The notes under the pieces were generated by a model that was given only the letters and a program-made list of their open reading frames with translations, was not told where the DNA came from and searched no databases. A stretch of 64,000 bases of DNA from NCBI RefSeq assembly GCF_015711605.1, contig NZ_JABTEZ010000006.1, forward strand, positions 124,001 through 188,000. Direction: 5' to 3'. Origin of the DNA: Planomonospora sp. ID67723 (lineage in GTDB: Bacteria; Actinomycetota; Actinomycetes; Streptosporangiales; Streptosporangiaceae). Below are positions 5,036 through 36,429 of the stretch, in pieces. The position numbers and the translations under genes are program-made. Position 1 is the stretch's first letter; the number at the start of each line of letters is the position of its first letter.

Positions 5036-6796
5036 TCAGCTCAGCGCGCGGGCGGTGTGGATCAGCGGGACGTGGCTGAAGGCCTGCGGGAAGTTGCCGA
5101 CCAGGCGGCCGTAGCGCGGGTCGTACTCCTCGGAGAGCAGGCCGACGTCGTTGCGCAGGGCCAGCAGGCGCTCGAAAAGCTCGACCGCATCCTCCCTGCG
5201 GCCGATCATCGCGAGGGCCTCGGCCAGCCAGAAGCTGCACGCCAGGAAGGAGCCCTCACCGCCGGGCAGGCCGTCCACGTCGTTGTCCCTGGCCACCGGG
5301 TAGCGCAACACGAACCCGTCCACCAGCAGCTCGCGCTCGACCGCCTCGATGGTCCCGATCACGCGCGGGTCCTCCGGCGGCAGGAAGCCGACGATGGGGA
5401 TGAGCAGCAGGGCGGCGTCGAGCTCCTGCGAGCCGTACGCCTGGGTGAAGGTGCCCCGCACCGGATCGAAGGCCTTGTCGCAGATCTCGGCGTGGATCCG
5501 GGCGCGTACCTCCTTCCAGCGCTCCACCGGGCCGTCCTGGCCGAGGACCTCCACGTATTTGATCGCCCGGTCCAGGGCGACCCAGCACATCACCTTGGAG
5601 TGGGTGAAGTGGCGGCGGGGCCCGCGGACCTCCCACAGACCCTCGTCGGGCTCGTCCCAGTGGTCCTCGACGTAGCCGATCAGCCGCCGCTGGATGGTCC
5701 AGGCCCGCCGGTCCGGCTCCATGCCCGAGGTGCGCGAGAGATACAGGGAGTTCATCACCTCGCCGTAGACGTCGAGCTGGAGCTGGTTGACCGCGCCGTT
5801 GCCGATCCGGACCGGCCGGGACCCCTCGTAGCCGGGCAGCCAGCCGATCTCCATCTCCGGCAGGCGGCGCTCTCCGGCGACGCCGTACATGATCTGCAGG
5901 TCCTCGGCCCGGCCGGCGATGGCGCGCAGCAGCCAGGCCCTCCAGTCACGGGCCTCCTGCAGGTAGCCGGCGCCGATCAGGGCCTCCAGGGTCATGGTGG
6001 CGTCACGCAGCCAGCAGAAGCGGTAGTCCCAGTTGCGGACCCCGCCCAGGTCCTCGGGCAGGGAGGTGGTGGGGGCCGCGACGATGCCGCCGGTGGGGGC
6101 GTAGGTGAGCGCCTTGAGCGTGATGAGGGAGCGGACCACGGCCTCGCGCCAGGGCCCCTTGTAGCAGCACTGCTCCACCCACTCGGCCCACAGCGCCTCG
6201 GTCTCGGTCAGCTGCTCGAACGGGTCGATCTCGACGGGCCGGGGCTCGTGGGAGGGGTGCCAGGTGAAGAGGAACGCCACCCGCTCGCCCGCCGAGACCT
6301 GGAAGGTCCCCTCGTGGGAGTATCCGTCGCTGTGCAGCGGCACGGGGGAGTGCAGCCAGACGGAGTCGGGGCCGCCGACGGCGTGCAGCAGGTCGCCGTC
6401 GCGGCGCACCCAGGGCACGATCCGGCCGTAGTCGAACCTGATGCGGATCTCCGTGGACATCTCCACCGTGCCGGAGACGCCTTCGACGATCCTGACCAGG
6501 TCGGGGTTGGTCTGCCGGGCGGGCATGAAGTCGATCACCCGGACGGTGCCGCCGGGGGTGTCCCACTCGCTCTCCAGCACCAGGGTCTCGCCCCGGTAGC
6601 GCCGCCGGGTCGCGGGGGCATGGCCGGAACCCGCGGGGCCGAGCCACCACTGCCCGTGGCCCTCGTCGCCGAGCAGCGCCCCGAAGCACGAGGGAGAGTC
6701 GAACCGGGGGAGGCAGAGCCAGTCGATTGAGCCGTTCAGCCCGACGAGGGCGGCCGACTGCATGTCGCCAATGAGGGCGTAGTCCTCGATCCGCAT
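5036..6796 (-). CDS. glycoside hydrolase family 15 protein (glucoamylase/trehalase type)
   Basis: The 586-residue protein matches the full GH15 layout. It has an N-terminal super-sandwich domain opening IEDYALIGDMQSAALVGLNG-SIDWLCLPRFDSPS, then an (alpha/alpha)6 catalytic barrel with GGVRNWDYRFCWLRDATMT (about 240-260) and WLPGYEGSRPVRIGNGA. In actinobacteria, proteins with this N-terminus include cytosolic trehalases as well as glucoamylases, so the substrate may be trehalose or an alpha-glucan. No signal peptide is present, supporting a cytosolic role. The ATG at 6796 begins at the conserved N-terminal motif. It is followed on the same strand by the 345-bp gap before the Ca-repeat gene. Confidence 0.88.
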   Translation of the reverse strand: MRIEDYALIGDMQSAALVGLNGSIDWLCLPRFDSPSCFGALLGDEGHGQWWLGPAGSGHAPATRRRYRGETLVLESEWDTPGGTVRVIDFMPARQTNPDLVRIVEGVSGTVEMSTEIRIRFDYGRIVPWVRRDGDLLHAVGGPDSVWLHSPVPLHSDGYSHEGTFQVSAGERVAFLFTWHPSHEPRPVEIDPFEQLTETEALWAEWVEQCCYKGPWREAVVRSLITLKALTYAPTGGIVAAPTTSLPEDLGGVRNWDYRFCWLRDATMTLEALIGAGYLQEARDWRAWLLRAIAGRAEDLQIMYGVAGERRLPEMEIGWLPGYEGSRPVRIGNGAVNQLQLDVYGEVMNSLYLSRTSGMEPDRRAWTIQRRLIGYVEDHWDEPDEGLWEVRGPRRHFTHSKVMCWVALDRAIKYVEVLGQDGPVERWKEVRARIHAEICDKAFDPVRGTFTQAYGSQELDAALLLIPIVGFLPPEDPRVIGTIEAVERELLVDGFVLRYPVARDNDVDGLPGGEGSFLACSFWLAEALAMIGRREDAVELFERLLALRNDVGLLSEEYDPRYGRLVGNFPQAFSHVPLIHTARALS

Positions 6797-6827
6797 GATC
6801 CGACGCTAATACCCGCGACGGTGATCG

Positions 6828-7448
6828 TCAGTCCTGCGCGGTCGATCGGGAGAAACTCAGCCGCGGCATGAAGAACTGGGCGAGGGGGCCGACGGCGAGG
6901 GCGAAGACCACCGTACCGACGCCCACGGTGCCGCCGAGCAGCCAGCCGGTCGCCAGCACGGTCACCTCGATGAGGGTGCGGGCCAGGCGGATCGAGAGGC
7001 CCAGGCGGACCAGCCCGGTCATGATGCCGTCGCGCGGGCCCGGGCCCAGGCCCGCCCCGATGTACAGGGCCGTCGCCGCGGCGGTGGCCACGACGCCGGC
7101 CAGCAGGCAGGCCCAGCGGACGGCGAGGGGCTCCGGGGTGGGGACCAGCCACAGGGCCGCGTCGGCGAACAGTCCGAGGAAGACGACGTTGCTGAGGGTG
7201 CCGATGCCCGGCCGCTGCCTGAGGGGGATCCACAGCACCATCACCAACGCTCCCACGATGATGATCCAGGTGCCGACCGAGAGGCCGAAGTGGGTCGAGA
7301 GGCCCTGGTGGAACACGTCCCAGGGGCTTCCGCCGAGGGCGGACTCGATCTGCAGGCCGATGCCGACGCCGTAGAGCGCCAGTCCCGAGTAGAGGCGGAC
7401 GAGGCGGTTGGGGAGGGAGCCGAGGGTGGGCAGGGAGAGTTCGCTCAT
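6828..7448 (-). CDS. YczE/YitT-type integral membrane protein
   Basis: This 206-residue protein has five or so hydrophobic segments and the conserved text of the YczE family (LALYGVGIGLQIESALGGSP-WDVFHQGLS, then GAGLGPGPRDGIMTGL). It starts at ATG 7448 and is divergent from a MocR-type regulator 62 bp away. This YczE/MocR arrangement is known in Bacillus and actinobacteria, where the PLP-binding regulator controls the membrane protein. The transported or sensed compound is not established. Confidence 0.85.
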   Translation of the reverse strand: MSELSLPTLGSLPNRLVRLYSGLALYGVGIGLQIESALGGSPWDVFHQGLSTHFGLSVGTWIIIVGALVMVLWIPLRQRPGIGTLSNVVFLGLFADAALWLVPTPEPLAVRWACLLAGVVATAAATALYIGAGLGPGPRDGIMTGLVRLGLSIRLARTLIEVTVLATGWLLGGTVGVGTVVFALAVGPLAQFFMPRLSFSRSTAQD

Positions 7449-7510
7449 AATGAGCTAATCGTCCGGGTTATCCATCATGACTGAAAGGTCCAATCAGCGA
7501 AAGTGGCTTT

Positions 7511-8956
7511 ATGCTGGCCCGCATGGACCGGTACCTGAGTGGACCCCAGCTCGCCCGCCTCCTCGCGATCGACCCCGGCGCGCGGCCCTACTACCGGGTG
7601 CTGGCCGGAGCCGTGCGCTCGCTGATCCTCGACGGCCGGCTTCCGGTCCGGGTGCGGATGCCTGCCGAGCGGCACCTCGCCGAGGCCCTGGGCGTCAGCC
7701 GTACCACCGTGACCGCCGCCTACGACCGTCTGCGCGAGCAGGGTTACCTGGAGAGCCGCCAGGGCGCCGGGAGCTGGACCGCGCTGCCCGACCCCGGCGC
7801 GCTCGGCATCGAGAACCCGTGGATCGCGGCCGGAGACGACGGCCTGCTGCCGCTGCACTGCGCCGCGCCGCACGCGACCTCGGCGCTGCCCGCGGCGATC
7901 GCCCACGCGAGCGAGCACTACCCGCGCTACGCGCTGGGCATGGGCTACGACCCGGTCGGCATCGCGCCGCTGCGCGAGGCGATCGCGGCCCGCTACACCG
8001 CGCGCGGGCTGGCCACCCGGCCCGAGCAGATCCTCGTCACCACCGGGGCCCAGCAGGCGATCCACCTGCTGATCACGATGTTCCTCTCGGCCGGCGACCC
8101 GATGGTGATCGAGTCGCCCACCTACCCGCACGTGATCGACCTGGCCAGGATGCGCGGTGCCCGGATCGTCCCGGTCGGCCTCGCCGAGGACGGCTGGCAC
8201 CTGGACCTGCTCGCCTCCGCGATGAGCCAGTCGGCCGCGCGCCTCGCCTACGTGATCCCCGACTTCCAGAACCCGACCGGGCACCTGATGGACGACGCCG
8301 TGCGGGCCGGGCTGGTCGGCGCGGCCCGCAAGCACGGCACCACCCTGGTCGTGGACGAGACCTGGAGCGAACTGGCGATCGACGAGGCGCCCCGGACCGC
8401 GCCGCTGGCCGCGTTCGACACCGACAACCGGGTGATCAGCGTCGGGTCGGCGTCCAAGCTGTGGTGGGGAGGGCTGCGCATCGGCTGGGTCCGCGCCGGC
8501 GCGGCCGTGGTCCGCCGCCTGGCGGTGCTGCGCGCGGCCGTGGACATCGCCAGCCCTCTCTTCGAGCAGCTGGTCGTGACCCGGTTGTTCGAGGACATGG
8601 AGGAGACCAGAGCCGAGCGGCGGCGCACCCTCAGAGTCTCCCGGGACGCGCTGGTGTCGGCGCTGGGGGAGCGGATGCCCGACTGGAGGTTCACGGTCCC
8701 GGCGGGCGGCGGCTCGCTCTGGGTCCGGCTGGAGGGTCCGTCGGCCGGCGCGCTGGCCGACGCCGCGGCCTGCCACGGGGTACGGCTCGCGCCCGGCACC
8801 TGGTTCGGCGTGGACGGCGCCTTGGAGCGCCGGCTCCGCCTGCCGTTCACCCAGCCGCCGCAGATCGTCGCCGAGGCGGTGGAGCGCATCGCCGAGGCCA
8901 GGATCAGAGGCTCGTACGGCGCCCGCCCGGCCGAGCCGCTCACCCCCGCGCTGTGA
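7511..8956 (+). CDS. MocR-type regulator: GntR winged helix fused to aminotransferase domain
   Basis: The protein has an N-terminal GntR winged helix (about residues 20-95: RMPAERHLAEALGVSRTTVT and YDRLREQGYLESRQGAGSW). A fold-type I aminotransferase domain follows, with IPDFQNPTGHLM, VVDETWSEL and the PLP-lysine region SVGSASKLWWGGLRIGW. At 481 residues it is standard for MocR regulators, which bind pyridoxal phosphate. It probably represses or activates the divergent yczE-type gene and itself from the shared 62-bp intergenic region. The start could be ATG 7511 or ATG 7523; neither has a strong Shine-Dalgarno. Confidence 0.9.
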   Translation: MLARMDRYLSGPQLARLLAIDPGARPYYRVLAGAVRSLILDGRLPVRVRMPAERHLAEALGVSRTTVTAAYDRLREQGYLESRQGAGSWTALPDPGALGIENPWIAAGDDGLLPLHCAAPHATSALPAAIAHASEHYPRYALGMGYDPVGIAPLREAIAARYTARGLATRPEQILVTTGAQQAIHLLITMFLSAGDPMVIESPTYPHVIDLARMRGARIVPVGLAEDGWHLDLLASAMSQSAARLAYVIPDFQNPTGHLMDDAVRAGLVGAARKHGTTLVVDETWSELAIDEAPRTAPLAAFDTDNRVISVGSASKLWWGGLRIGWVRAGAAVVRRLAVLRAAVDIASPLFEQLVVTRLFEDMEETRAERRRTLRVSRDALVSALGERMPDWRFTVPAGGGSLWVRLEGPSAGALADAAACHGVRLAPGTWFGVDGALERRLRLPFTQPPQIVAEAVERIAEARIRGSYGARPAEPLTPAL

Positions 8957-18927: not shown

Positions 18928-19500
18928 TCAGTCGAAGTCGACGCACCTGGCGTACCAGTCGCCGGTCAGATGTGTGATCTGAGATGCTCCGAGCTCCTGC
19001 ACGCGCCCGGCAGGGACGTGAACGAATCCGCACTGCTCCAGCATCCCGCCGGAGCCCGCCGTACCGAGCTCTGTGACCCCATTCCAGCGTCGGACCTGGT
19101 CGATCGTGAATGCTCCGGCTTGTTCCTCGTGGAAGATCCAGCGTTGCCGTTCCGGCAGAGAGGCCGCGTACCTCGTCAGAGCGGGTTCGGACATCGCGAA
19201 GGCGACGTGCAGCGGAATTCCTGAACCGGCAATGGCGAAGACCAGTCCGCCGGCAAGCGGCAGAAGGCAGAGCCGCCGGTCACGTCCGTGGGGACGAACC
19301 GCGAGGAGCGCCACCCACGCGCAGAAGGACAGCAGCCATGCGGGGACGGCCGCGATGATCAGCGGGGTGTTGCCGCCGGGGGTCGCCGCAGCGAGCACCG
19401 TCAGCACCGACGCGGCGAGCACCGGCCCGATGAGCACCAACCGCCACCAGCTACGCCGCGGCGACGTGCGGGGGGAATCGACGACCAGGGAAGCAGCCAT
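18928..19500 (-). CDS. membrane protein of unknown function
   Basis: From ATG 19500 the product is 190 residues, opening MAASLVVDSPRTSPRRSWW. Three hydrophobic segments follow (about 20-43, 48-70, 80-105), then a C-terminal domain containing WIFHEEQAGAFTIDQVRRWN and ending DWYARCVDFD. The family is not recognised. Upstream, three tandem 24-bp units each carry an AAGG and an in-frame ATG, so translation could also begin 24, 48 or more bases upstream, adding KACVRFSM blocks. No operon partner is apparent. Confidence 0.55.
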   Translation of the reverse strand: MAASLVVDSPRTSPRRSWWRLVLIGPVLAASVLTVLAAATPGGNTPLIIAAVPAWLLSFCAWVALLAVRPHGRDRRLCLLPLAGGLVFAIAGSGIPLHVAFAMSEPALTRYAASLPERQRWIFHEEQAGAFTIDQVRRWNGVTELGTAGSGGMLEQCGFVHVPAGRVQELGASQITHLTGDWYARCVDFD

Positions 19501-19569
19501 GCTGAACCTTACGCAGGCCTTCATGCTGAACCTTACGCAGGCCTTCATGCTGAACCTTACGCAGGCCTT
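19498..19569 (-). repeat. three perfect 24-bp tandem repeats over a start codon
   Basis: Units 19498-19521, 19522-19545 and 19546-19569 are identical. Read on the minus strand, each contains GTAAGGTTCAGCATG: a Shine-Dalgarno-like AAGG, a seven-base spacer and an ATG, all in frame with the membrane protein. Confidence 0.95.
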
Positions 19570-19890
19570 GATGATGAGGTGGTCCTCCCTCGGCTCGCCT
19601 GGTCCGGTTCCAGGCAGGCCGGTGGCTTCGCGATGTGGTCCACCTTTTCGGGCCGTGACGGCGGGGGAACGCCTCGGTCTGGATCGGTGACACTGATTCC
19701 GCACAGTGATGTTGCGTCTCGGGCGTGTATCGAGAGTGCGCAAAGGCGGGCGACCGGCTCGGCGCCGCCGACCATGCCGAGGACCTCTTCACGCCGCTGT
19801 GAGGGGACCTCTTTACCGCGCCGTGACGGGGGTGGAGTTCACTCGCGGCTGTGCCCTTGTCTACGTTGGAGATGAGACGGGGGAAATGTC
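19570..19890. other. intergenic stretch with a 24-bp imperfect tandem repeat
   Basis: No convincing gene is present. At about 19780-19827 two adjacent 24-bp units share GACCTCTT and GTGA; each would encode a DLFT-type peptide end plus a stop. The stretch carries promoters for the flanking genes in both directions. Confidence 0.4.
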
Positions 19891-22395: not shown

Positions 22396-23139
22396 ATGGC
22401 AGTAAAGAGGGGGACTCCTTCCCTCGGCCTCCTCCGCGGCGGCGCTTCGGACACCGGATCTCCGCGGCATCCTCAGGGCGCCGTCCTGAGGTCGGAGCGG
22501 ACATGGGCGCGGCACCTGTGGTGGGTCGCCCTGGTCGCCGGCAGTGCCGGAGCCGCGTTCACGTGGCTGGCCACACCGCACGGCCGGGAGATAGAAGCGG
22601 TATGGGAACTCGGAGTCAAGCTGGCCGCGTTCGCCTGCCTGTGTGCGGCGATCGCGTTCTTTCCCTGGTCGGCGCCGCGCCTCCACTGGCTGTTGTACGT
22701 CCCCTTCGTGTTCTTCACCGGATACGTCATCCCTCGGATCAGCTACTTCTACTACGGGGATGTGGCGCGCGCCCAGGGCGACAGCTTTTACACGCATGTC
22801 TACCTGCTCCTCTATCCCGGGATCGTGCTCACCGTCGCGGCCGCCTACCGGCTGGGGGGCGGAAGTCCGGGTGCCTGCCTGAAGATCGCGGTGAACGGCA
22901 TCGTCATCGTGTTCTCCGGTTTCCTCGACCTGATGTGGTTCCTCGTCAACCCGGTAGAGCTGCCCCGGGTCATCGACGCGCCGCACATTTCGATCTTCAC
23001 GGGCGGGCCGATCTCCTATGGGGCGACCGTTCTGTTCACCCTGGCCCACGTCCCCGCCATCGTTCTTGTGGGAGCGCTCCCAGTAGACCGCTGGATCGAT
23101 CGCCTGCTCGGCCTCGCACCGGCAGGCGGTTCCACATGA
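22396..23139 (+). CDS. six-segment membrane protein, first gene of glycan operon
   Basis: The 247-residue protein starts at ATG 22396 (AAAGG upstream). It has about six membrane segments: 35-57, 68-90, 98-122, 133-152, 160-183 and 205-230. Conserved-looking polar text includes YVIPRISYFYYGDVARAQGD in a loop. The family is not recognised. Its 3' end, encoding GALPVDRWIDRLLGLAPAGG, forms the first unit of a 95-bp tandem repeat that includes a LacI-type palindrome. It may take part in synthesis or export of the lipid-linked product of the operon. Confidence 0.65.
   Translation: MAVKRGTPSLGLLRGGASDTGSPRHPQGAVLRSERTWARHLWWVALVAGSAGAAFTWLATPHGREIEAVWELGVKLAAFACLCAAIAFFPWSAPRLHWLLYVPFVFFTGYVIPRISYFYYGDVARAQGDSFYTHVYLLLYPGIVLTVAAAYRLGGGSPGACLKIAVNGIVIVFSGFLDLMWFLVNPVELPRVIDAPHISIFTGGPISYGATVLFTLAHVPAIVLVGALPVDRWIDRLLGLAPAGGST
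23069..23082. promoter_or_regulatory. LacI/CebR-type operator-like palindrome 1
   Basis: TGGGAGCGCTCCCA is a perfect 14-bp palindrome identical to the CebR box described in Streptomyces. This copy lies inside the membrane-protein coding sequence. Confidence 0.6.
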
Positions 23140-23163
23140 CCGGCGGCTCCGTCATGACCATTT

Positions 23164-23177
23164 TGGGAGCGCTCCCA
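23164..23177. promoter_or_regulatory. LacI/CebR-type operator-like palindrome 2
   Basis: An identical TGGGAGCGCTCCCA, 95 bp after the first, lies between the membrane-protein gene and the GT2 gene. Confidence 0.6.
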
Positions 23178-23258
23178 GTGGGCTGTCGGGCCGACTCCCT
23201 GCCCGGCGTCGCACCGGCAGGCGGTTCCACATGACCGGCGGCTCCGCCGTGACGCTTG

Positions 23259-23272
23259 TGGGAGCGCTCCCA
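23259..23272. promoter_or_regulatory. LacI/CebR-type operator-like palindrome 3
   Basis: An identical TGGGAGCGCTCCCA, 95 bp after the second and 75 bp before the preferred GT2 start. It is well placed to control the downstream genes. Confidence 0.6.
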
Positions 23273-23346
23273 ATCAATCGCCGGATCGATTCCCTGCTCG
23301 GCGCCGCATCGGACGGCGGCCCGGAATGACCACGAAGGGCGAGCAC

Positions 23347-24153
23347 ATGTCGCAAGTCCCGATCGCATCCCGGACAGTCCGGCTCTCGGTCGCGGCACCC
23401 GCCTTCAACGAGGCCGACAACATCGCGGCGGCGGTGGAGGAGTGGCGCAGCTACCTGGAAGGCCACCCGGCGATCGGTGCGTGGGAGATCGTCGTCTGCG
23501 ACGACGGCAGCACCGACGCCACCCGCGCGATCCTGGAAGACCTGAGGAAGGGATGCCCCGAGCTCGTCGTGGTGGGCTTCGAGCACAACCGCGGCGCGGG
23601 CGCGGCGATCGCCGCCGCGATCGCCGCCACCCGCCTCGACTGGGTCGTGCTACTCGACTCCGACGGTCAGTTCCCGATCGCCAATCTGGGTAGATTTCTC
23701 GACCGCATCCGCGACGGCGAAGGAGCGGCCTTCTCCGGGGCCAGGATCCGGAAGGCGGACGGCCTGCCGTACCGGTGGGGGTCGGCGCTCAGCGGCGCCA
23801 TCGGAAATCTGCTCCATCGCACCCGGTACCGCGACTTCAACTCGATCTTCAAGGTGGTGTACGGCCCGCTCTTCCGCGCGCTGCCGCTGGAATCCGGCGG
23901 GATGAACTGCTCGACCGAGATCACCGCCCGGGTCGTCGAGGCCGGCCACGACTGGATCGAGATCCCGATAGAACACCGGCAGCGCGGCGGCGGCAGCCGG
24001 GGGTGGCGGTTCTGGCGGGGGGCGCGCGACCGGGCCCTGTTCGTGGGCTACCTGGGATACCGGCGCTGGCTGCTCCGCCTGGGCGTGCTGCGGCCGCCGG
24101 CCGTGCCCGCCGTCTCCGGCGAACACGCCGACCCTGCGCTGGAGGTCCGATGA
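23347..24153 (+). CDS. family 2 glycosyltransferase (polyprenyl-phosphate sugar transferase-like)
   Basis: The GT-A domain shows VAAPAFNEADNI, the nucleotide-binding VVCDDGSTD, HNRGAGAAIAAAI and the metal-binding LLDSDGQFP. This pattern resembles dolichyl/polyprenyl-phosphate mannosyl- or glucosyltransferases. The C-terminus lacks a clear pair of membrane segments, so it is probably a peripheral enzyme. I prefer ATG 23347 (GAAGGGCGAG upstream; 268 residues) over ATG 23326, which overlaps the stop of the last repeat unit. Its stop overlaps the next gene's start (ATGA). Confidence 0.85.
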   Translation: MSQVPIASRTVRLSVAAPAFNEADNIAAAVEEWRSYLEGHPAIGAWEIVVCDDGSTDATRAILEDLRKGCPELVVVGFEHNRGAGAAIAAAIAATRLDWVVLLDSDGQFPIANLGRFLDRIRDGEGAAFSGARIRKADGLPYRWGSALSGAIGNLLHRTRYRDFNSIFKVVYGPLFRALPLESGGMNCSTEITARVVEAGHDWIEIPIEHRQRGGGSRGWRFWRGARDRALFVGYLGYRRWLLRLGVLRPPAVPAVSGEHADPALEVR

Positions 24154-25385
24154 CCACGCCGTACCTCGACCGGGCGTCGGTGGTCCTGTTCAGCGGAGGG
24201 CGAGGCGGCGCCAGCATCGCCCGCGGCCTGCTGCGCGTGCCGGACCTCGGTCTGTCCGTGGTGATCAACGGATACGACAACGGGCAGTCCACCGGGGCGC
24301 TGCGCCGCTACCTGCCGGGCATGCTCGGCCCCTCGGACTTCCGCAAGAACCTCCTGCTGCACCTCCACGGGGACGATCCGCGTCAGGCGGCGCTGAGGGG
24401 CGTGCTCGACCACCGGCTGCCCGCCCGGGCCACCCGGCAGGATCTCCACGACCTCGTGGACGGGCTGGCCCGGAGCAGGGTGTACGGCATGCTGCCGCCG
24501 CACACGAGGGCAGCGGTGGTGCGCGACCTCCGCGTCATGACGGGAATGCTCGACGGCCGGCCCGGACTCGATCTCGGGGACTGCGCGCTCGGCAACCTCG
24601 TGTTCGCGGGTGCGTACCTGAGGCTGGGCCGGGACTTCAACGCCGCGATCCGTTCCTGCACCGAGACGTTCGAGTCGCCGGCGCGGCTCGTCAACGTGAC
24701 GGGCGGCGAGAACGCCTTCCTGGTGGCGCTCAAGAAGGACGGCCGGCTCCTGGCGGACGAGGCCGACATCGTCGCCCCGCAGGACCCGGTCGCCATCTCC
24801 GACCTGTTCCTCCTCGACAGGCCGATCACCCCGCGGCGGCGGGCGGTACTCGAAACGCTCCCCGACGAGCACCGGCGACGCGCCCTGGCCCGCGGCGGCG
24901 CCGAGGTCTCCCTCAATCCGGAGGCCAGGGACGCCATCGTGCGTGCCGACCTGATCGTGTACGGGCCCGGCACACCGCACTCGTCGCTGCTGCCGAGCTA
25001 TCTCACCCCCGGGATCGCCGACGCGATCGCCGCCGGCCGCGCCACCGCCAAGGTGTTCGTCGTCAACGTCAGGGACGACCACGACGTCCAGGGCCTCGAC
25101 GCCCGCGCACTCGTCGACCGAACCCTGCGCTACCTCGGCGATCCCCGCAACGAGCGGCGCATGGTCACCCATGTCCTCTGTCACCGCGCGGGACCCGTCA
25201 GGACAGAGGGCGCCGAGGGCGCCGAGGGCTCCGGAGAGCTGGGGGACTGCGGGGACGGAGCGGGGGCACGATGGATCACGGCCGATCTGGAGGACCCGCG
25301 GCGGCCCGGTGTGCACTCCGGGACCCGCACGGTGGCCGCGCTGGCCCGCATCGTCGGCGAGACCTCCCTGCTGGGTGCCGGATGA
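24150..25385 (+). CDS. CofD/YvcK-superfamily protein
   Basis: The 411-residue protein has the CofD/YvcK fold signatures in order: LFSGGRGGASIARGLL near the N-terminus, then VINGYDNGQSTGALRRYLPG where YvcK has a DDGGSSG motif, then GPSDFRKNLL, LGNLVFAG, and YGPGTPHSSLLPSYLTPGI. CofD transfers phospholactate in F420 synthesis; YvcK proteins are reported to bind UDP-sugars. Placement among glycosyltransferases favours a sugar-nucleotide-related role, but the changed DNGQSTG motif leaves the reaction open. The start and stop both overlap neighbours (ATGA). An acidic EGAEGAEGSGE repeat lies near the C-terminus. Confidence 0.8.
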   Translation: MTTPYLDRASVVLFSGGRGGASIARGLLRVPDLGLSVVINGYDNGQSTGALRRYLPGMLGPSDFRKNLLLHLHGDDPRQAALRGVLDHRLPARATRQDLHDLVDGLARSRVYGMLPPHTRAAVVRDLRVMTGMLDGRPGLDLGDCALGNLVFAGAYLRLGRDFNAAIRSCTETFESPARLVNVTGGENAFLVALKKDGRLLADEADIVAPQDPVAISDLFLLDRPITPRRRAVLETLPDEHRRRALARGGAEVSLNPEARDAIVRADLIVYGPGTPHSSLLPSYLTPGIADAIAAGRATAKVFVVNVRDDHDVQGLDARALVDRTLRYLGDPRNERRMVTHVLCHRAGPVRTEGAEGAEGSGELGDCGDGAGARWITADLEDPRRPGVHSGTRTVAALARIVGETSLLGAG

Positions 25386-26128
25386 ACGCGGTCGCGCGTC
25401 GCACGGCCGCGGCGCTCGCCGGGCGGCGCGTCTGGTTGTGCGACCTGGACGGCACACTCGTCGACTCGGCCCCCGCCCACGAGGCCGCCTTCCGCGCCGC
25501 GCTTGCCGAGATCTCCCCCGAGTTGCCCGGCTCCTTCGACTACAGCGCCCACATGGGGGCGAGCACCCGGCAGGTGGTGGAGGGACTGGGCGTGGATCCG
25601 CTCCTCGTCACGGGGGTGATCAGGCGCAAGCAGCGGTTGTACCGGGCGTACGTCCGGGACGGGGCGGTGGCGGTCCTGCCCGGGGCGTACCGGCTGCTGA
25701 CGCTCCTGGCCGACCGTGGGCACGCGGCCTACCTCGTCACCAGCGGGAGCCGCGACTCGGTCACCCGCGTCCTGGAGGCATGCGCGCTGACCGGATACTT
25801 CCGCGGCGTGCTGACCGCCGACGACGTGGCGTGCAGCAAGCCCGATCCGGGCTTCTACCGGCAGGCGTGCGACCTGTGGGCGGTCGATCCCGCCGGTGCC
25901 GTCGTGCTGGAGGACTCCGCCCACGGGGTGGCCTCCGCCGTCGGCGCGGGTCTTCTCACGCTCCAGGTGCACGGCACCGCCCCGGCCGCCGGGGCGGTGC
26001 CGGTACGGGACCTGGAAGAGATCATCTCCCTTCTCGGCGTGAGCGATATGAGCGATACAGACGGCATAAGTGGCATGGAGGCTTCGGATATGGAGTCTCC
26101 GGACATGGAGGAGAACACCCTTGGGTGA
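25382..26128 (+). CDS. HAD-superfamily phosphatase/phosphoglucomutase-like protein
   Basis: This 248-residue HAD subfamily IA protein has the nucleophile motif WLCDLDGTLVDSAP (about 19-32), motif II VTSGSRDS, motif III lysine in CSKPDPGFY, and motif IV VVLEDSAHGV. It probably removes or moves a phosphate on a sugar intermediate. It overlaps the CofD-like gene by four bases and the nucleotidyltransferase gene by eight. The C-terminal tail is a low-complexity MEASD/MESPD/MEEN repeat produced by a 15-bp tandem repeat, whose last copy supplies the GGAGGAG ribosome-binding site of the next gene. Confidence 0.85.
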   Translation: MNAVARRTAAALAGRRVWLCDLDGTLVDSAPAHEAAFRAALAEISPELPGSFDYSAHMGASTRQVVEGLGVDPLLVTGVIRRKQRLYRAYVRDGAVAVLPGAYRLLTLLADRGHAAYLVTSGSRDSVTRVLEACALTGYFRGVLTADDVACSKPDPGFYRQACDLWAVDPAGAVVLEDSAHGVASAVGAGLLTLQVHGTAPAAGAVPVRDLEEIISLLGVSDMSDTDGISGMEASDMESPDMEENTLG

Positions 26129-26903
26129 CGAACGTGTCTGCGCGGTGGTCCCCGCGGCGGGGCAGGGGTCCAGGCTCGGCCTCGGCATCCCGAAGATCAT
26201 GCTGGAGATAGCCGACGGCGTCACCGTGTGGGACCTGCTGCGCCGCCGCCTCACGCCGTGGGCGGAGCACGTCCACGTGGTGCTCTCCCCGGCGGGGAAG
26301 GCGCCCTTCCAGAGGCTGGCGGCCGAGGCGATCGAACGGGGAGAGGTCTCCGTCAGCGTCCAGGAGGAGCCCACGGGCATGGGCGACGCCGTCTTCGGGG
26401 CCGCTGTGCCGTACTGGGCGGGCCACGACGCGATGCTGGTCGTCTGGGGCGACCAGGCGAACCTGTCCTCGCGGACGGTCGGCGAGGTGGTGCGGGCACA
26501 TCGCGAGAGCACCGCCGCGGGAGGGCCGGGCCTCACCCTTCCGCTGGTCGCGCTGCCCGACCCCTACGTCGAGTACGAATACGACGCGGACTCGTCGGCC
26601 CTGCTGCGGGTGCGCATGTCCAGGGAGGGGGACGAGTGCCGCCCCGGCGGGCTCAGCGACGTCGGCGTCTTCTGCCTCAGCGTGGACGGGCTGGCCCAGT
26701 CCTGGCCGCGCTACCTGGCTGCGGCCAGGACCGGGACGGTCACCGGCGAGGTCAACTTCCTGCCGTTCCTCCCGTACCTGTCGCGGGAACTCGGCTGGCG
26801 GACCACGGTGGTGCCGGTCACCGACCCCGACGAGGCCCGCGGCATCAACACCCCCGCCGACCTGGAGTTCACCCGTAGGGCGTACCTGCGATGCACGAGC
26901 TGA
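26121..26903 (+). CDS. sugar-nucleotidyltransferase-like protein
   Basis: I assign a TTG start at 26121 because GGAGGAG lies eight bases upstream and the Rossmann-type N-terminus VCAVVPAAGQGSRLGLGIPK follows at once. The 260-residue protein has the nucleotidyltransferase pattern: the glycine-rich loop above, QEEPTGMGDAVFGA, VVWGDQANLS for the metal-binding Asp, and GINTPADLEF at the end. It would make an NDP-sugar from NTP and a sugar phosphate for the glycosyltransferases here. The sugar is unknown. Its end overlaps the next gene by 13 bases. Confidence 0.82.
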   Translation: MGDERVCAVVPAAGQGSRLGLGIPKIMLEIADGVTVWDLLRRRLTPWAEHVHVVLSPAGKAPFQRLAAEAIERGEVSVSVQEEPTGMGDAVFGAAVPYWAGHDAMLVVWGDQANLSSRTVGEVVRAHRESTAAGGPGLTLPLVALPDPYVEYEYDADSSALLRVRMSREGDECRPGGLSDVGVFCLSVDGLAQSWPRYLAAARTGTVTGEVNFLPFLPYLSRELGWRTTVVPVTDPDEARGINTPADLEFTRRAYLRCTS

Positions 26904-28204
26904 CCTCCGGCCCCGGGACCCTCCGCCGGGTCCATGTCGTCTGCTCGGAGATCCCGCCCGACGTCGTGGGCGGGCTCGGCCGCTACGCCGAACGCATGAT
27001 GGACGCCCTGCGCCGCAGCGGGGTCCCCGTCACGGTGTACGGCACCGCCCGCAGGGGCCGGTCGCCCCGGATCGAGCGCCGCGGCGACGTCACGCTGCAC
27101 CGGCTGACCACGGCGAGCAGCGACCACGCCAGGAACTCGCGCACCCCGCGCGTGCTCCGGCAGGCAGCCAGGATCGCCGGGCTGCTCGCCTTCAACGTGC
27201 GCGTCGCGAGCCGCATCCTTCGCGCCGAGGCGGGCCGGCCCGGGGCCGAGCGGTCCGGGACGGTCGTCGCCGTGCACGACTGGATGGGCTCCCCGGCCGG
27301 TATCCTGTGCCGTCTGCTCGGCCGCCTGCCGGTGGTCTTCCACGTCCACACCCGGGAACTCAACGCCGACCCGTCCGCAGGCCCCTCCCTGCAGGCGGCC
27401 TGTCTCGACGCGGTGGAGGCGGCGCAGGCCCGCCTGGCGGACCTGATCATCGTGCCGAGCGCGAGCGTCCGCGACGATCTCGCGGCCCGCGGCTGGCCGG
27501 GGGAGCGGCTGCGGGTCCTGCCGCACGGCTTCGAGGAGCCGGAGCTGCTGCGGCTGGCCGCGCTGCCCGGCGACGAGCGCGCCCGCATCGCCTCGCGGGT
27601 ACGGCGCCGCTACCTGCCGGGCGGTGAGGGCCGGTTGGTGGTGTTCGCCGGGCGCCTGTCCCCGCACAAGGGCGTGCACACCCTCCTCCGGGCGGTGCCG
27701 CTGCTGGCGGAGAAGTACGGCGACCTGCGGATTGTGATCATCGGCACGCAGCTGCCGCAGACCGACGACAACGCGGCCGTCGCGCAGCTGATCGACGAGA
27801 CCGGCGCCGGCGAGCACGTGGTCGCCGACTACCGCTTCCTCGACTCGGCCGAGCTGTTCGCGCACTTCCTCGCCGCCGACGTGTGCGCCTTCCCGTCCGT
27901 GTACGAGCCGTTCGGGCTGGTCGCGGTGGAGGCCATGGCCCTGGCCCGGCCGGTGGTCGTCGGCCCGGGCTACTCTCCCGAGGTTGTGGGGGACGGGGCG
28001 CTGCGCTACGCGCGCGACCGCCCCGGTGAACTGGCCGACGCCCTGTCGCACTGCCTCGGTGATCCGGCGGAGGCCGCGCGGCTCGCCGCCCGCGGCGCCG
28101 CGTACGTGCGGGAGCGCTACAGCTGGTCCCGCACGGCCGAGCGGACCCTGGCCGCCTACGCCGAGGCGGCGCGGCGGCCTCTCCGCACCGGGGCGGCACG
28201 GTGA
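26891..28204 (+). CDS. family 4 glycosyltransferase
   Basis: The 437-residue GT-B enzyme has the N-terminal acceptor-side motif PPDVVGGLGRYAERM, FHVHTRELN, and the C-terminal donor-side VVFAGRLSPHKGVHTLL with the E-x7-E motif PSVYEPFGLVAVEAMA. It is a retaining GT4. It resembles the GT4 encoded at 29532 in layout (GLGRY, FHVHT, EPFGLVA), suggesting an ancient duplication. It overlaps neighbours on both sides, so it is part of the same operon. It probably adds a sugar to a lipid-linked intermediate. Confidence 0.9.
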   Translation: MHELTSGPGTLRRVHVVCSEIPPDVVGGLGRYAERMMDALRRSGVPVTVYGTARRGRSPRIERRGDVTLHRLTTASSDHARNSRTPRVLRQAARIAGLLAFNVRVASRILRAEAGRPGAERSGTVVAVHDWMGSPAGILCRLLGRLPVVFHVHTRELNADPSAGPSLQAACLDAVEAAQARLADLIIVPSASVRDDLAARGWPGERLRVLPHGFEEPELLRLAALPGDERARIASRVRRRYLPGGEGRLVVFAGRLSPHKGVHTLLRAVPLLAEKYGDLRIVIIGTQLPQTDDNAAVAQLIDETGAGEHVVADYRFLDSAELFAHFLAADVCAFPSVYEPFGLVAVEAMALARPVVVGPGYSPEVVGDGALRYARDRPGELADALSHCLGDPAEAARLAARGAAYVRERYSWSRTAERTLAAYAEAARRPLRTGAAR

Positions 28205-28265
28205 TCTCCCGGCGCCGGGGCGGCATCGCTGCCTTTCTGCGCCGGGGCGGCGCGGTGACCTCCCG
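28185..28265 (+). repeat. duplicated start region of the flippase gene
   Basis: Two 27-bp copies (28185-28211 and 28239-28265; 24 of 27 bases match) each contain CCGGGGCGGC followed by an in-frame GTG (28201 and 28255). Between them lies a shorter third partial copy at about 28211-28228. Confidence 0.85.
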
Positions 28266-29535
28266 CACGCCCCTCCGGCTCGGCGGGCGGCGCTGGGCCG
28301 TCGCGGCCCCGATGGCCGTCAACGCGATCGCCAGCGGCGTCTCGGCCTCGACCACGCTGCTGGTCGCCTGGGGAGTCAGCGCCGCCGAGTTCGGGCGCTT
28401 CACCCTGGTCCTGTCGATCGCGCTGATCGTCACCGTCGGCATGGTGATGAGCCTGCATTTCGTCATGTACCAGGAACTCCCGCGAGCCCGGACGGAGGAA
28501 CACCGCGCCCTGATCACCACGGCACTGCTGTCCACCCTCGTGCTGGGCACAGGCCTGGCCCTGGCGGGTCTCCTGGCCGCCCCCGCCCTGACCACCGTGC
28601 TGGGTGTGGACCTGCGCACCCTCTGCCTCGCACTGGCCCTCGCCCTGGCGATGGCGGTGAACTACCTCACAGAGAGCTTCCTGCGAGGCCTGCGGAAGTA
28701 CGGCCTCACCTCCGGACTCAAGATCGTCGTTGCCTTCGTCTACCTGGGAGTCTCGGCCTACTGCCTGTTCGTGCTCGACGTCAGGAGCGTTGACTGGTAC
28801 CTGCTGGCGCTGATCGGCACGAACCTGCTCTTCGCCCTCGTCTCCGCGATCGGCTTCCGGATCGACCCGCGCTCCTGGTCGCGCCCGCTCGCCCGCTCGC
28901 TGTACCGGCACGGCGCCTACCTCACCGCCCTCGGCGGCCTCAGCGCCGTGCTCTTCGGCGTGGACGTGATCTTCCTCAACCACTGGGCGGACCCGTCCGA
29001 GGTCGGGGTGTACTCGATCTACAACAACTTTCCCAAGCGGCTCCTGGGAGTGGTGGTCGCCGACGGCATCGGCCTGGTCCTGCTGCCCACGCTGGCCGTC
29101 ATGGACACCTCCGCGGCGCTGCGGCGCATCGGGCGGCTGTCCCCGGCCGTCTTCGCGGCGACGGCCCTGCTGTCGTTCGCAGCGAGCGCGGTGTTCTTCC
29201 TCCTCCTGCGGGACGAGTATCCGTACTCGTTCGGCCTCATGGCCCTGTCGGCCCTGGGCATCGGCGCCCACACGGTCTTCAACCTCTACTCGGCGGCCCT
29301 GTCGATGGACGGGGTGCGGGGCGCCAAGGCGCTCATCATCGCCCAGGCCGCCGCGGCGCCGCCCGTGCTCGCCTGCCAGGCCGCGCTCATCGCCTGGCAG
29401 GGCCTGGTCGGCGGGCTGGTGGCGTTCATCCTGTGCAATCTCGCTCTCATCGCGGTCGTGGTCATCGTCTCCGCCCGGGTGTACCGGCCGCGGGCGCAGA
29501 CGCCGAGCGTCCGCCATTCGGAGGTCCGGCGATGA
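28201..29535 (+). CDS. polysaccharide flippase-like (Wzx/MATE-type) membrane protein
   Basis: This 444-residue protein has about 12 membrane segments and the N-terminal pattern of oligosaccharide flippases (VNAIASGVSASTTLLVAWGV, SAAEFGRFTLVLS). A mid-protein loop VYSIYNNFPKRLLG is typical of the superfamily. It would flip the lipid-linked glycan built by the neighbouring transferases across the membrane. The GTG at 28201 overlaps the previous stop. A second GTG at 28255, in a duplicated sequence context, gives a start at TSRTPLRLGG that may be the true one. The stop overlaps the next GT4 start. Confidence 0.82.
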   Translation: MISRRRGGIAAFLRRGGAVTSRTPLRLGGRRWAVAAPMAVNAIASGVSASTTLLVAWGVSAAEFGRFTLVLSIALIVTVGMVMSLHFVMYQELPRARTEEHRALITTALLSTLVLGTGLALAGLLAAPALTTVLGVDLRTLCLALALALAMAVNYLTESFLRGLRKYGLTSGLKIVVAFVYLGVSAYCLFVLDVRSVDWYLLALIGTNLLFALVSAIGFRIDPRSWSRPLARSLYRHGAYLTALGGLSAVLFGVDVIFLNHWADPSEVGVYSIYNNFPKRLLGVVVADGIGLVLLPTLAVMDTSAALRRIGRLSPAVFAATALLSFAASAVFFLLLRDEYPYSFGLMALSALGIGAHTVFNLYSAALSMDGVRGAKALIIAQAAAAPPVLACQAALIAWQGLVGGLVAFILCNLALIAVVVIVSARVYRPRAQTPSVRHSEVRR

Positions 29536-30788
29536 AGATCGCTCACATCATCAACCAGTTCCCGCCGAACATCACCGCGGGGCTCGGCCGCTACATCGCG
29601 GAGATCGCCCCCCGCATGGCCGAGGGGCACCGCCTGATCGTCTTCACGCTCAACGACGGCCGCCTGCCGGCCTTCGAGCGCGTCGGAGGCGTGGTCGTTC
29701 ACCGGCCGAGAGACCGGATATTCGGCGCGATCAGCCGTCGCCGCCGGCTCAACCGCACCCGCAGGCTCGACTTCGCCCTGCTCGCGCTGAACGTCGTGGT
29801 CAGCAACTGGCGGTATTTCCTGCGTCTGCTCTCCGCCGGGCGGAACGGGCGGCCCGACCTGGTGGTGGTGCACGACTCCACCAACTTCCTCGCCGGCCTC
29901 CTCTGCCACCACCTGCTGCGGCTCCCCGTCGTCTTCCACGTTCACACCACCGAGTACGGCGTCAACCGCAGCCACGGCACCGCAGGGGCGAGGGGACTGT
30001 TCGCCGTGGTCGAGCGGTGGCTGGCGCGCGTCGCCCGCCGGATCGTGGTCCCCACCCCGGAGGTGCGCGACCAGCTCGCCGCCGCCGGCTGGGACCGCTC
30101 GTCGATCGAAGTGGTCTGCCTGGGCGGCACGTTCGAGCGGCTGCTCACCGGGGACGGGCCGGGAGCGGAGGCGCTGCGGGCGCGAGCCGACGGCCTGCGC
30201 GCCCGGCTCGGCATCGGGTCCGGTGACGCGGCTCTGCTGTTCGTCGGCAGGATCGAACGGCAGAAGGGGATCTACCAGCTGCTTGAGGCCATGCCGCGGA
30301 TCGTCGCCGCGGTGCCGGGGCTGCGCCTGGTGATCGTCGGCGAGGGCGATGAGGAGGGTGTGCAGCGGATCGTCACCGAGGCGGGGCTGGCCGGGCACGT
30401 CCGCACATCCGGCGGGTGGGTCGGTGGCGAGGACCTGCTGGAGTACTACGAGATGGCCGACGCCTGCGTCTTCCCCTCGCTTTTCGAACCGTTCGGCCTG
30501 GTGGCGACCGAGGCCATGGCCATGGGGAAGCCGACGATCCTCGGTCACGGCTTCTCCCGGATCTTTCTCGGCGACCCGGCCCGTCCCGCGGCACGCTTCG
30601 TACGCGGGGACGATCCGGACGACATCGCCAGGGTCGTGATCGAGCTCATGGCGGACCCGGGGGCGCGGGAGTCGCTCGCGGTCGAGGGCGAGCGGTTCGT
30701 CCGGAAACGGCTGAGCTGGAACCGGACCACCGAGGAGACGCTCGCCGTCTACCGGAGCGTCCTGGACGGGGCCTTCACGGCCGGCTAG
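29532..30788 (+). CDS. family 4 glycosyltransferase (second copy)
   Basis: The 418-residue GT-B enzyme opens MKIAHIINQFPPNITAGLGR. It has FHVHTTEYG and the donor-binding LLFVGRIERQKGIYQLLEAM with the E-x7-E motif PSLFEPFGLVATEAMAM. It is the last gene of the overlapping operon (ATGA with the flippase). Similarity in layout to the GT4 at 26891 implies both act on the same glycan in successive steps. A short CCCGG-CTTTC-CCGGG hairpin at 30820-30834 may mark the operon end. Confidence 0.9.
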   Translation: MKIAHIINQFPPNITAGLGRYIAEIAPRMAEGHRLIVFTLNDGRLPAFERVGGVVVHRPRDRIFGAISRRRRLNRTRRLDFALLALNVVVSNWRYFLRLLSAGRNGRPDLVVVHDSTNFLAGLLCHHLLRLPVVFHVHTTEYGVNRSHGTAGARGLFAVVERWLARVARRIVVPTPEVRDQLAAAGWDRSSIEVVCLGGTFERLLTGDGPGAEALRARADGLRARLGIGSGDAALLFVGRIERQKGIYQLLEAMPRIVAAVPGLRLVIVGEGDEEGVQRIVTEAGLAGHVRTSGGWVGGEDLLEYYEMADACVFPSLFEPFGLVATEAMAMGKPTILGHGFSRIFLGDPARPAARFVRGDDPDDIARVVIELMADPGARESLAVEGERFVRKRLSWNRTTEETLAVYRSVLDGAFTAG

Positions 30789-35244: not shown

Positions 35245-36426
35245 TGAGCCGGTCTTGAGCTGTGGTGTCACCACATGAGGTGAATTGTGTTTCAGGCCGC
35301 AGCGCGAGGTGACGAGACCTCCGCGCCGCGTTCTGCTGGAGGGATGAGTGATCCACGACTGGAGCCGCTGGTGCTGACCGAGCTCGAACGCTCGACGTTG
35401 CAGGGGTGGGTGAAACGCCGTACGACCGCGCAGGGCTTGGCACTGCGGGCACGGATCGTGCTGGCCTGCGCCGAGGGCGGCAGCAACATGGCGGTGGCCG
35501 GACGCTTACGGATCCACCGTAAAACCGTGGCCCGCTGGCGCAGCCGGTTCCTGTCCGCCCGGCTGAACGGACTGCATGACGAGCCCCGGCCCGGCGTGCC
35601 GCGCACCATCACCGACGCCCAGGTCGAGGAGGTGGTAGTGCGCACGCTGGAAGAAGTCCCTGCCGGAGCCACCCACTGGTCCAAACGCGAGCTGGCCCGG
35701 AAGGTGGGCATCTCCCCGACCAGTGTGCTGCGGATCTGGCGGGCGTTCGGCCTGCAACCGTGGCGGACCGAGGACTTCAAGATCTCCCCGGACCCGCTGC
35801 TGATCGACAAGATCCGGGACGTGGTCGGACTGTATCTGGCCCCGCCGGCCGGCGCGGTGGTGTTCTCGATGGATGAAAAACCCCAGATCCAGGCCCTGGA
35901 ACGGACTGCGCCCGTCCTACCGATGCTGCCCGGGACCCCGGAGCGGCGCAGCTTCGACTACATCCGGCACGGCACTGTGGACCTGTTCGCCGCGCTGAAC
36001 ACCGCAACCGGCCAGGTGATCAGCAAACTGTCGGCCCGGCACCGCGCGATCGACTTCCGCGACTTCCTGGCCGAGATGGACCTGCAGGTCGAACCCGACC
36101 TGCAGGTCCATGTGATCTGCGACAACCTCGCGGCGCACAAGGCGCCGCTGGTGCACCGCTGGCTGCTGGCCCATCCACGCTTCACGCTGCATTTCACCCC
36201 AACCTATGCCTCGTGGATCAACCAGGTCGAACGTTGGTTCGCCGAGTTGCAGCGACGCTGCCTGGAGCGTGGGGTGTTCTGCTCCCTGGGGGCGCTGACG
36301 ACCGCTCTGGAGGAATGGATCGCGTTCTGGAACGACAATGCCAAGCCGTTCCGGTGGACCAAGACTGCCGACCAGATCATCGACCGTATCTGCCGCTACT
36401 GCGACAGGATCTCAAGACCGGCTCAC
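35244..36426 (+). mobile_element. IS630-family insertion sequence, apparently intact
   Basis: The 1183-bp element is bounded by perfect 16-bp inverted repeats, GTGAGCCGGTCTTGAG at 35244-35259 and its complement at 36411-36426, and flanked by the TA duplication typical of IS630/Tc1 (35242-35243 and 36427-36428). It carries one intact transposase gene. Insertion used the TA of the moaA stop codon, and the first base of the element (G) restores TAG. Flanking bases rejoin as GGCGGC-TA-GCAGCG on precise excision. Confidence 0.93.
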
Positions 36427-36429
36427 TAG
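35344..36429 (+). CDS. IS630-family transposase
   Basis: The 361-residue transposase has an N-terminal helix-turn-helix region (NMAVAGRLRIHRKTVARW and VGISPTSVLRIWRAFG). The DDE catalytic domain has Asp177 in FSMDEKPQIQ, Asp260 in VICDNLAAHK and Glu296 in INQVERWFAEL, a D35E spacing characteristic of this superfamily. I start at ATG 35344 with GGAGGG upstream; an in-frame start at 35287 is possible. Its own stop codon TAG (36427-36429) lies outside the element, made of the duplicated TA plus the next flanking base. Confidence 0.95.
   Translation: MSDPRLEPLVLTELERSTLQGWVKRRTTAQGLALRARIVLACAEGGSNMAVAGRLRIHRKTVARWRSRFLSARLNGLHDEPRPGVPRTITDAQVEEVVVRTLEEVPAGATHWSKRELARKVGISPTSVLRIWRAFGLQPWRTEDFKISPDPLLIDKIRDVVGLYLAPPAGAVVFSMDEKPQIQALERTAPVLPMLPGTPERRSFDYIRHGTVDLFAALNTATGQVISKLSARHRAIDFRDFLAEMDLQVEPDLQVHVICDNLAAHKAPLVHRWLLAHPRFTLHFTPTYASWINQVERWFAELQRRCLERGVFCSLGALTTALEEWIAFWNDNAKPFRWTKTADQIIDRICRYCDRISRPAH

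Follow-up and report, generated by a model that had tools for sequence, protein, structure and literature searches.

The CofD/YvcK superfamily has been studied for F420 synthesis and for the control of cell-wall precursors. FbiA/CofD is the phospho-acid transferase of the F420 pathway, and D45 and D57 are given as the metal ligands of FbiA (excerpts of PMC7253369). YvcK of Bacillus subtilis binds uridine diphosphate (UDP)-sugars, for which it requires the arginine R301, and affects cell-wall synthesis (excerpts of PMC5482804), and GlmR of Listeria makes UDP-N-acetylglucosamine (UDP-GlcNAc) from uridine triphosphate (UTP) and GlcNAc-1P, the residues named being D40, D41 and N198 (excerpts of PMC10128056). 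Meanwhile, for the CebR/CelR cellulose regulon, hydrolases, binding proteins, transporters, regulators and genes of carbohydrate metabolism, signalling and thaxtomin are reported as targets in excerpts of PMC5332605, PMC3377646 and PMC4898821, in which no glycan-assembly operon was seen among the targets.

The locus described here lies in a window, that is, the whole analysed stretch of 64,000 nucleotides (nt) from Planomonospora sp. ID67723 (contig NZ_JABTEZ010000006.1, positions 124,001 to 188,000; host contig C6 of a genome of 8.3 Mb). Its positions 22396-30788 hold eight + strand genes, for a membrane protein (MP), a GT2 glycosyltransferase, a CofD-like protein, a HAD hydrolase, a nucleoside triphosphate (NTP) transferase, a GT4 glycosyltransferase (GT4a), a flippase and a second GT4 glycosyltransferase (GT4b), with overlapping junctions from the GT2 gene onward; this coupled set, which an earlier sequence-only reading had described, is confirmed by open reading frame (ORF) calls, Pfam and 40 related loci. 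We tentatively propose, as a plausible reading a little short of probable, that the operon is a cellobiose-induced pathway for a lipid-linked glycan in which the CofD-like protein would be a metal-dependent transferase acting on the nucleoside diphosphate (NDP)-sugar of its neighbours; the operon probably makes its glycan while some soil bacteria feed on plant matter. This proposal draws on features of the sequence: the order and overlaps of the genes, their fusions and co-occurrence, the placing of the CofD-like protein in a clade apart with its metal site conserved, and the CebR boxes. No description of the gene set or of the clade, and no characterised cluster of this content, was found in the open-licence PubMed Central (PMC) literature, a search outside which most subscription journals lie, and nothing relevant on Planomonospora glycolipids was found in the same literature. 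The earlier view, in which an unusual CofD/YvcK relative belongs to an apparently undescribed operon of glycan type, is supported by these searches and by the separate clade, while the CebR boxes, the gene fusions of a Propionibacterium and the occurrence of the core in several phyla are features absent from it.

Placement and residues of the CofD-like protein

On its sequence, the CofD-like protein is a clade of its own in the CofD/YvcK superfamily, neither FbiA/CofD nor YvcK, and it adds to this superfamily a distinct clade with a clear pathway context. Its NCBIfam scores are 89.8 for GAK (TIGR04357, cut-off 340), 74.5 for YvcK (TIGR01826, cut-off 196) and 20.3 for CofD (TIGR01819, cut-off 257.45). 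A tree of 40 sequences unites the 24 family rows at 99/100 in a group that also takes in, on a long branch, an Acaryochloris plasmid protein; the nearest neighbours are GAK and a Sinorhizobium protein (96/73), four CofD/FbiA rows stand apart at 100/100, and the family also lies outside the YvcK group; the tree has several long branches, and the fine placing is unsure. The identity of an F420-type CofD is thus ruled out by the TIGR01819 score and the tree, a grouping that the sequence-only reading had named as its own possible undoing; that of an ordinary YvcK is ruled out by the TIGR01826 score, the tree and the residues, and membership in the GAK system by the TIGR04357 score. GAK is nevertheless the best NCBIfam match and the adjoining tree group, whereas the two GAK genes examined have no annotated glycosyltransferase nearby. 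The genome has two further PF01933 proteins, one placed with YvcK and one with FbiA, and the operon copy is the third; unlike FbiA/CofD, it has glycan genes as neighbours and no adjoining F420 genes, and unlike YvcK, whose own gene lies elsewhere in the genome, it stands in a glycan operon. Of the oddity formerly claimed for the protein, the separate clade stands, while the motif DNGQSTG does not serve as a sign of it alone, since YbhK of Escherichia coli has DNGGSTG and the second position of the motif in the family varies between D (29 of 52 aligned rows) and N (the other 23).

The best structural match of the predicted model (mean predicted local distance difference test score, pLDDT, 90.7) is YvcK (2ppv, Z 34.0, 2.6 A over 303 residues), followed by FbiA (6uw7, Z 22.8, 3.7 A over 279 residues). 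D43 and D63 align with D45 and D57 of FbiA, by a count along the aligned 6uvx, and both are D in 52/52 rows; D63 lies within a stretch used for the pattern search described below and D43 outside it. Shared with YvcK/GlmR/YbhK are the first catalytic aspartate, the PGD aspartate and two asparagines. R301 of YvcK is not kept, its equivalent, inferred via the RHD motif of a Priestia YvcK, being V388 in the window and V in 24, A in 7, T in 7 and a gap in 5 of 52 rows. As for the GlmR residues, D40 corresponds to D43, D41 to N44 (D 29, N 23) and N198 to S283 (S 48, T 4), a position at which rows of the YvcK group also vary.

Three readings of the CofD-like step can be ordered: phosphosugar transfer is preferred, followed by GlmR-like nucleotidyl transfer and then by sensing. 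In the first, which is possible but less likely than not, a sugar phosphate would be moved onto a hydroxyl with release of nucleoside monophosphate, in the manner of FbiA/CofD with its GDP-linked substrate. The second, in which the protein would be a further nucleotidyltransferase making or topping up the NDP-sugar of the operon, is unlikely: the closeness to YvcK/GlmR in sequence and fold, the activity reported for Listeria GlmR, the invariant D43 and the D or N at the following position speak for it, but a GlmU-like enzyme is already present in the operon, N198 is replaced by S or T in all rows, and the protein falls outside the YvcK group in the tree. Sensing of UDP-sugars, which had been suggested from the sequence at the outset, is unproven. 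A non-catalytic nucleotide-sugar sensor controlling neighbouring enzymes, as proposed for YvcK/GlmR of B. subtilis, would suit the binding of UDP-sugars and the cell-wall effects reported there, and a regulatory role would agree with the fusion of the domain to GT2-like and HAD partners; it is highly unlikely, as the R301 equivalent is mostly V, A or T and the invariant metal aspartates fit catalysis better.

Partner enzymes and CebR boxes of the operon

Seven of the genes, all but MP, exceed the curated Pfam cut-off (Table 1). The NTP transferase profile covers the whole uridylyltransferase domain of GlmU (best E 4.8e-23); the nearest solved structures of the GT2 protein are ArnC, chondroitin synthase, sll0501 and dolichyl-phosphate mannose synthase, and the HAD protein is nearest to proteins named beta-phosphoglucomutase and to an inorganic pyrophosphatase of the same group, so that a mutase, a phosphatase and a pyrophosphatase are all possible for it. 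An NDP-sugar made from a sugar phosphate is, from these relationships, most likely the shared substrate of the operon enzymes. In the proposed pathway, the HAD and GlmU-like enzymes would convert the sugar phosphate into the NDP-sugar, the ArnC/DPM-like GT2 would load polyprenyl phosphate, one or two GT4 enzymes would extend the lipid-carried glycan, the CofD-like protein would carry out a metal-dependent transfer from the NDP-sugar, and the flippase would move the small lipid-linked glycan across the membrane; the product may be a glycolipid of the cell surface, a glycan that is exported or one attached to protein. The transfer of a phospho-acid, raised in the sequence-only reading, is unproven, and the adjoining NTP transferase resembles GlmU, a sugar-1-phosphate enzyme. 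The polyprenyl-type GT2, the GT4s, the Wzx-like flippase and the sugar activation genes are also found in Wzx-type lipid-linked glycan clusters; unlike these, the operon has a CofD-like protein and no polymerase, ligase or initiating phosphoglycosyltransferase nearby. Neither Wzy (PF04932) nor initiating phosphoglycosyltransferase (PF02397) gave a match on the contig, the four of each in the genome all lying on contig C1. The ratio of nonsynonymous to synonymous change (dN/dS) of the eight genes, in comparison with three relatives, is 0.18-0.54, which indicates purifying selection on all of them, and similar short overlaps are found at most of the same junctions in the 40 related loci, where the starts were script-chosen.

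Table 1. Positions of the operon genes and other features in the window (position 1 is its first letter).
Feature	Positions	Strand	Pfam	Overlap with preceding gene	Remarks
MP	22396-23139	+			247 aa
GT2	23326 or 23347 (alternative starts)-24153	+	PF00535
CofD-like protein	24150-25385	+	PF01933	ATGA	411 aa
HAD hydrolase	25382-26128	+	PF13419	ATGA	beta-phosphoglucomutase / phosphatase group
NTP transferase	26121-26903	+	PF12804	8 bases	TTG start; GlmU-like over the uridylyltransferase domain
GT4a	26891-28204	+	PF00534	13 bases	optional member
Flippase	28201-29535	+	PF01943	GTGA	GTG start; 33.4 bits, cut-off 28.2
GT4b	29532-30788	+	PF00534	ATGA
Imperfect tandem repeat	23034-23331				three copies, 95-nt spacing; MP 3' end and MP-GT2 spacer
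CebR box 1	23069-23082				exact; inside the MP 3' end
CebR box 2	23164-23177				exact
CebR box 3	23259-23272				exact; 53 nt before the ATG at 23326
27/54-nt tandem repeat	28159-28268				spans the GT4a/flippase junction
ORF	18928-19743	-			peptide ACVRFSMK three times near the start, noticed by eye
ORF	35287-36429				IS630-type transposase look, judged by eye

The control of the operon is suggested by the boxes in the tandem repeat at the end of MP. TGGGAGCGCTCCCA, which is the CebR consensus in excerpts of PMC5332605, occurs in every repeat copy and is the longest run identical in all three (14/14 columns, against 60/95 overall; the value of 8e-4 from this comparison treats columns as independent). 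Only 12 exact boxes occur in the 8.3 Mb genome (24 rows, the box being a palindrome), three of them in the operon. The remaining nine stand at eight places: 5' of a CBM2-GH48 gene adjoined by a GH6 gene; at the 5' ends of two CBM2-GH6 genes and of a LacI-family gene, a candidate only for the regulator; two before a gene for a sugar-type solute-binding protein; and one each at an ORF for a PAS/GAF histidine kinase, before a family-5 binding protein and at the unassigned locus L200. The operon and the cellulase genes of the genome thus have an exact 14-nt operator in common. A sigma-70 promoter scan found 0 promoters.

Of the 37 related clusters that contain MP as well as GT2, 25 have a box with at most one mismatch, and 9 of these an exact one, the stretches tested being the 400 bases ahead of MP, its first bases and its junction with GT2; in all, 33 sites fall in the 23.5 kb tested and 13 in the remaining 694 kb of the same loci. 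In other genera the boxes lie 13-120 nt ahead of the first gene, and the box-bearing genera include Planomonospora, Planobispora, Microbispora, Nonomuraea, Actinomadura, Sphaerisporangium and Sphaerimonospora. From these sites, a LacI repressor of the CebR/CelR type is likely to keep the operon repressed as long as cellobiose is lacking, and in many Streptosporangiaceae the operon would be switched on together with cellulose digestion; a glycan pathway tied to cellulose sensing would make cellobiose a simple laboratory switch. It has also been considered that the boxes are unrelated to the operon, a coincidence of coding sequence multiplied by the tandem repeat, since box 1 is part of the coding sequence of MP, the repeat brought boxes 2 and 3 with it, 12 of the 37 clusters are box-free in the stretches tested, and several actinobacterial LacI regulators use similar palindromes (excerpts of PMC3377646). 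This is quite improbable in view of the identity of the box in the three copies, its position before the first gene in other genera, and its rarity in a genome whose other exact boxes stand at GH48 and GH6 genes.

Conservation in Streptosporangiaceae and the orphan copies

A whole-protein search, which is free of pattern bias, found the CofD-like protein in 37 of 250 family genomes, and the NTP transferase is present in 36 of the same 250, namely the CofD-like-positive set minus the orphan genome G138. Of the 42 places listed, 40 were examined, those left out being the window itself and one 3.7-kb contig. The synteny search proposed with the sequence-only reading has the order MP, GT2, CofD-like, HAD, NTP transferase, flippase, GT4b kept in 35 of these 40 related loci; among the other five, L038, L041, L044 and L071 are cut inside the cluster by a contig end, and at L066 the CofD-like gene stands by itself. 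GT4a could be assigned in 16 of the 40, one of these being cut. A second set, from a short-pattern search with MLGPSDFR and VYGPGTPH of the CofD-like protein, comprises 40 named family loci, of which 6 are incomplete (five contig-end cuts and the orphan L108); the two sets overlap, with many identical contigs. Since these loci were found via the two patterns, the pattern stretches, including D63, may look over-conserved, and the spread is a lower bound.

The CofD-like protein of Planomonospora venezuelensis (NZ_JACHJJ010000007.1) is 90-91% identical to that of the window. At locus L107, the HAD, NTP transferase and GT4b genes are in broken pieces. Two CofD-like gene places occur in five of the 37 positive genomes (G087, G111, G156, G168 and G215), so that paralogous or transferred clusters exist; in Planobispora, for which both copies are listed, the second copy is at most 73% identical to the window. 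The clusters of Planomonospora parontospora (L123, 72%) and Planomonospora sp. ID82291 (L081, 66%) are less window-like than those of Planobispora (80-85%), a hint of transfer or hidden paralogy.

The orphan copies bear on the metal site. The copy at L066, from Microbispora, shares 92% identity with a clustered relative; that at L108, which lies on a complete chromosome of Actinomadura, shares 88%. Of the 46 columns with at least 95% conservation in the CofD-like family, four are changed in L066 (N149D, V208A, D267G, S278F) and six in L108 (D43G, T48A, D63A, K66R, N149D, V208A), while three clustered control copies, themselves in the alignment that defines the columns, show no change. L108 has lost both metal aspartates and L066 has not. 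These changes suggest decay, or an altered role, after loss of the partner genes, and an importance of the metal site inside the cluster. L108 retains two CebR boxes upstream of its gene. Next to the L066 orphan (6066-8504 of that locus) lies a gene for a polysaccharide lyase of family 8 with a CebR box of its own, Pfam-tested here, and similar lyase genes lie downstream of the cluster in L087, L088 and L104; such a lyase might degrade the glycan of the operon or a related one.

Fused version and spread of the core beyond the family

A fused version of the operon is found in Propionibacterium sp. oral taxon 192 (L120), in which all eight domains keep their order but are spread over three fused and two single genes: MP-GT2, CofD-like-HAD and NTP transferase-GT4, then flippase and GT4b. 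Its MP part was identified by a family profile (247 bits), and its GT4 domain stands in the GT4a position, the equivalence with GT4a being by position alone. In addition, the pattern matches named come from Verrucomicrobia, Melainabacteria, Cyanobacteria, Myxococcales, Deltaproteobacteria, Armatimonadetes, Alpha- and Gammaproteobacteria, Pelagibacteraceae, Cytophagaceae and Balneolaceae. The core in other phyla consists of GT2, the CofD-like protein and the NTP transferase, often with HAD and an epimerase: of 38 distant loci, 35 have the NTP transferase within 5 kb, 33 have GT2, 29 an SDR and 22 a HAD gene of its own (that of L120 being a fusion), and at the three loci without an NTP transferase the sequence stops 16 to 1286 bases past the CofD domain. 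In 32 aligned proteins a GT2-like domain follows C-terminal of the CofD-like domain, and the SAR11 members retain a GT2-type N-terminal stretch. A B12-type radical SAM gene lies near the core in five loci (L119, L126, L144, L145 and L147; SAR11, SAR116, myxobacterial and deltaproteobacterial), and nine alphaproteobacterial loci (L131, L132, L134, L135, L137, L138, L139, L141 and L143) have a TPR-type gene directly upstream of GT2, the L131 member being TPR plus GT41. The families at distant loci were Pfam-checked in single members (SDR in L117, TPR-GT41 in L131, radical SAM in L144).

The flippase profile has no match in 37 of the 38 distant loci, and this bears on whether the glycan is lipid-linked at all. 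The core could instead make an activated sugar for protein glycosylation, the actinobacterial flippase and GT4s having been added later, and with no lipid-linked surface glycan; the missing flippase and the nine loci with a gene of the TPR plus GT41 family agree with this, and control by CebR would suit the glycosylation of secreted cellulases. This alternative is distinctly unlikely given that the flippase stands inside the coupled set in the family and in L120, and that GT2 is closest to polyprenyl-phosphate transferases.

Several points weigh against the lipid-linked, cellobiose-induced pathway. Lipid linkage is not universal, because the nine TPR-gene loci lack a flippase profile match; the cluster has no polymerase, ligase or initiating transferase, and MP matches no family (no Pfam match, no PDB relative, and no fold match at E 0.001 or better with a model of mean pLDDT 64.9). 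The analogy with CofC/CofD is only partial because the NTP partner is GlmU-like and not CofC-like. To these come the box-free clusters, the non-independence of clusters from one genus in the box counts, and the sparseness of the core outside the family, found in 1 of 296 phylum genomes (the own one), in 10 of 394 class genomes (all of the own family) and in 1 of 190 genomes around an alphaproteobacterium.

Taken over many phyla, it is proposed, as a doubtful extension, that the clade performs an undescribed CofD-fold reaction, in which a sugar phosphate would pass from an NDP-sugar to a hydroxyl of a glycan or lipid in a metal-dependent manner and which in Streptosporangiaceae would be cellobiose-switched via CebR, so that feeding on cellulose would remodel the surface or glycosylate secreted proteins. 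Several hosts and proteins for the same question are offered by the Propionibacterium fusions and by those cyanobacteria-related, proteobacterial and SAR11 genomes that carry the core.

As for mobile elements, carriage as phage cargo was rejected with no match among 50,697 phage records, and carriage as plasmid cargo with only three matches, at 21-26% identity. A lone divergent relative, annotated as CofD family, lies on a conjugative plasmid of Acaryochloris marina (L184, 8001-9098).

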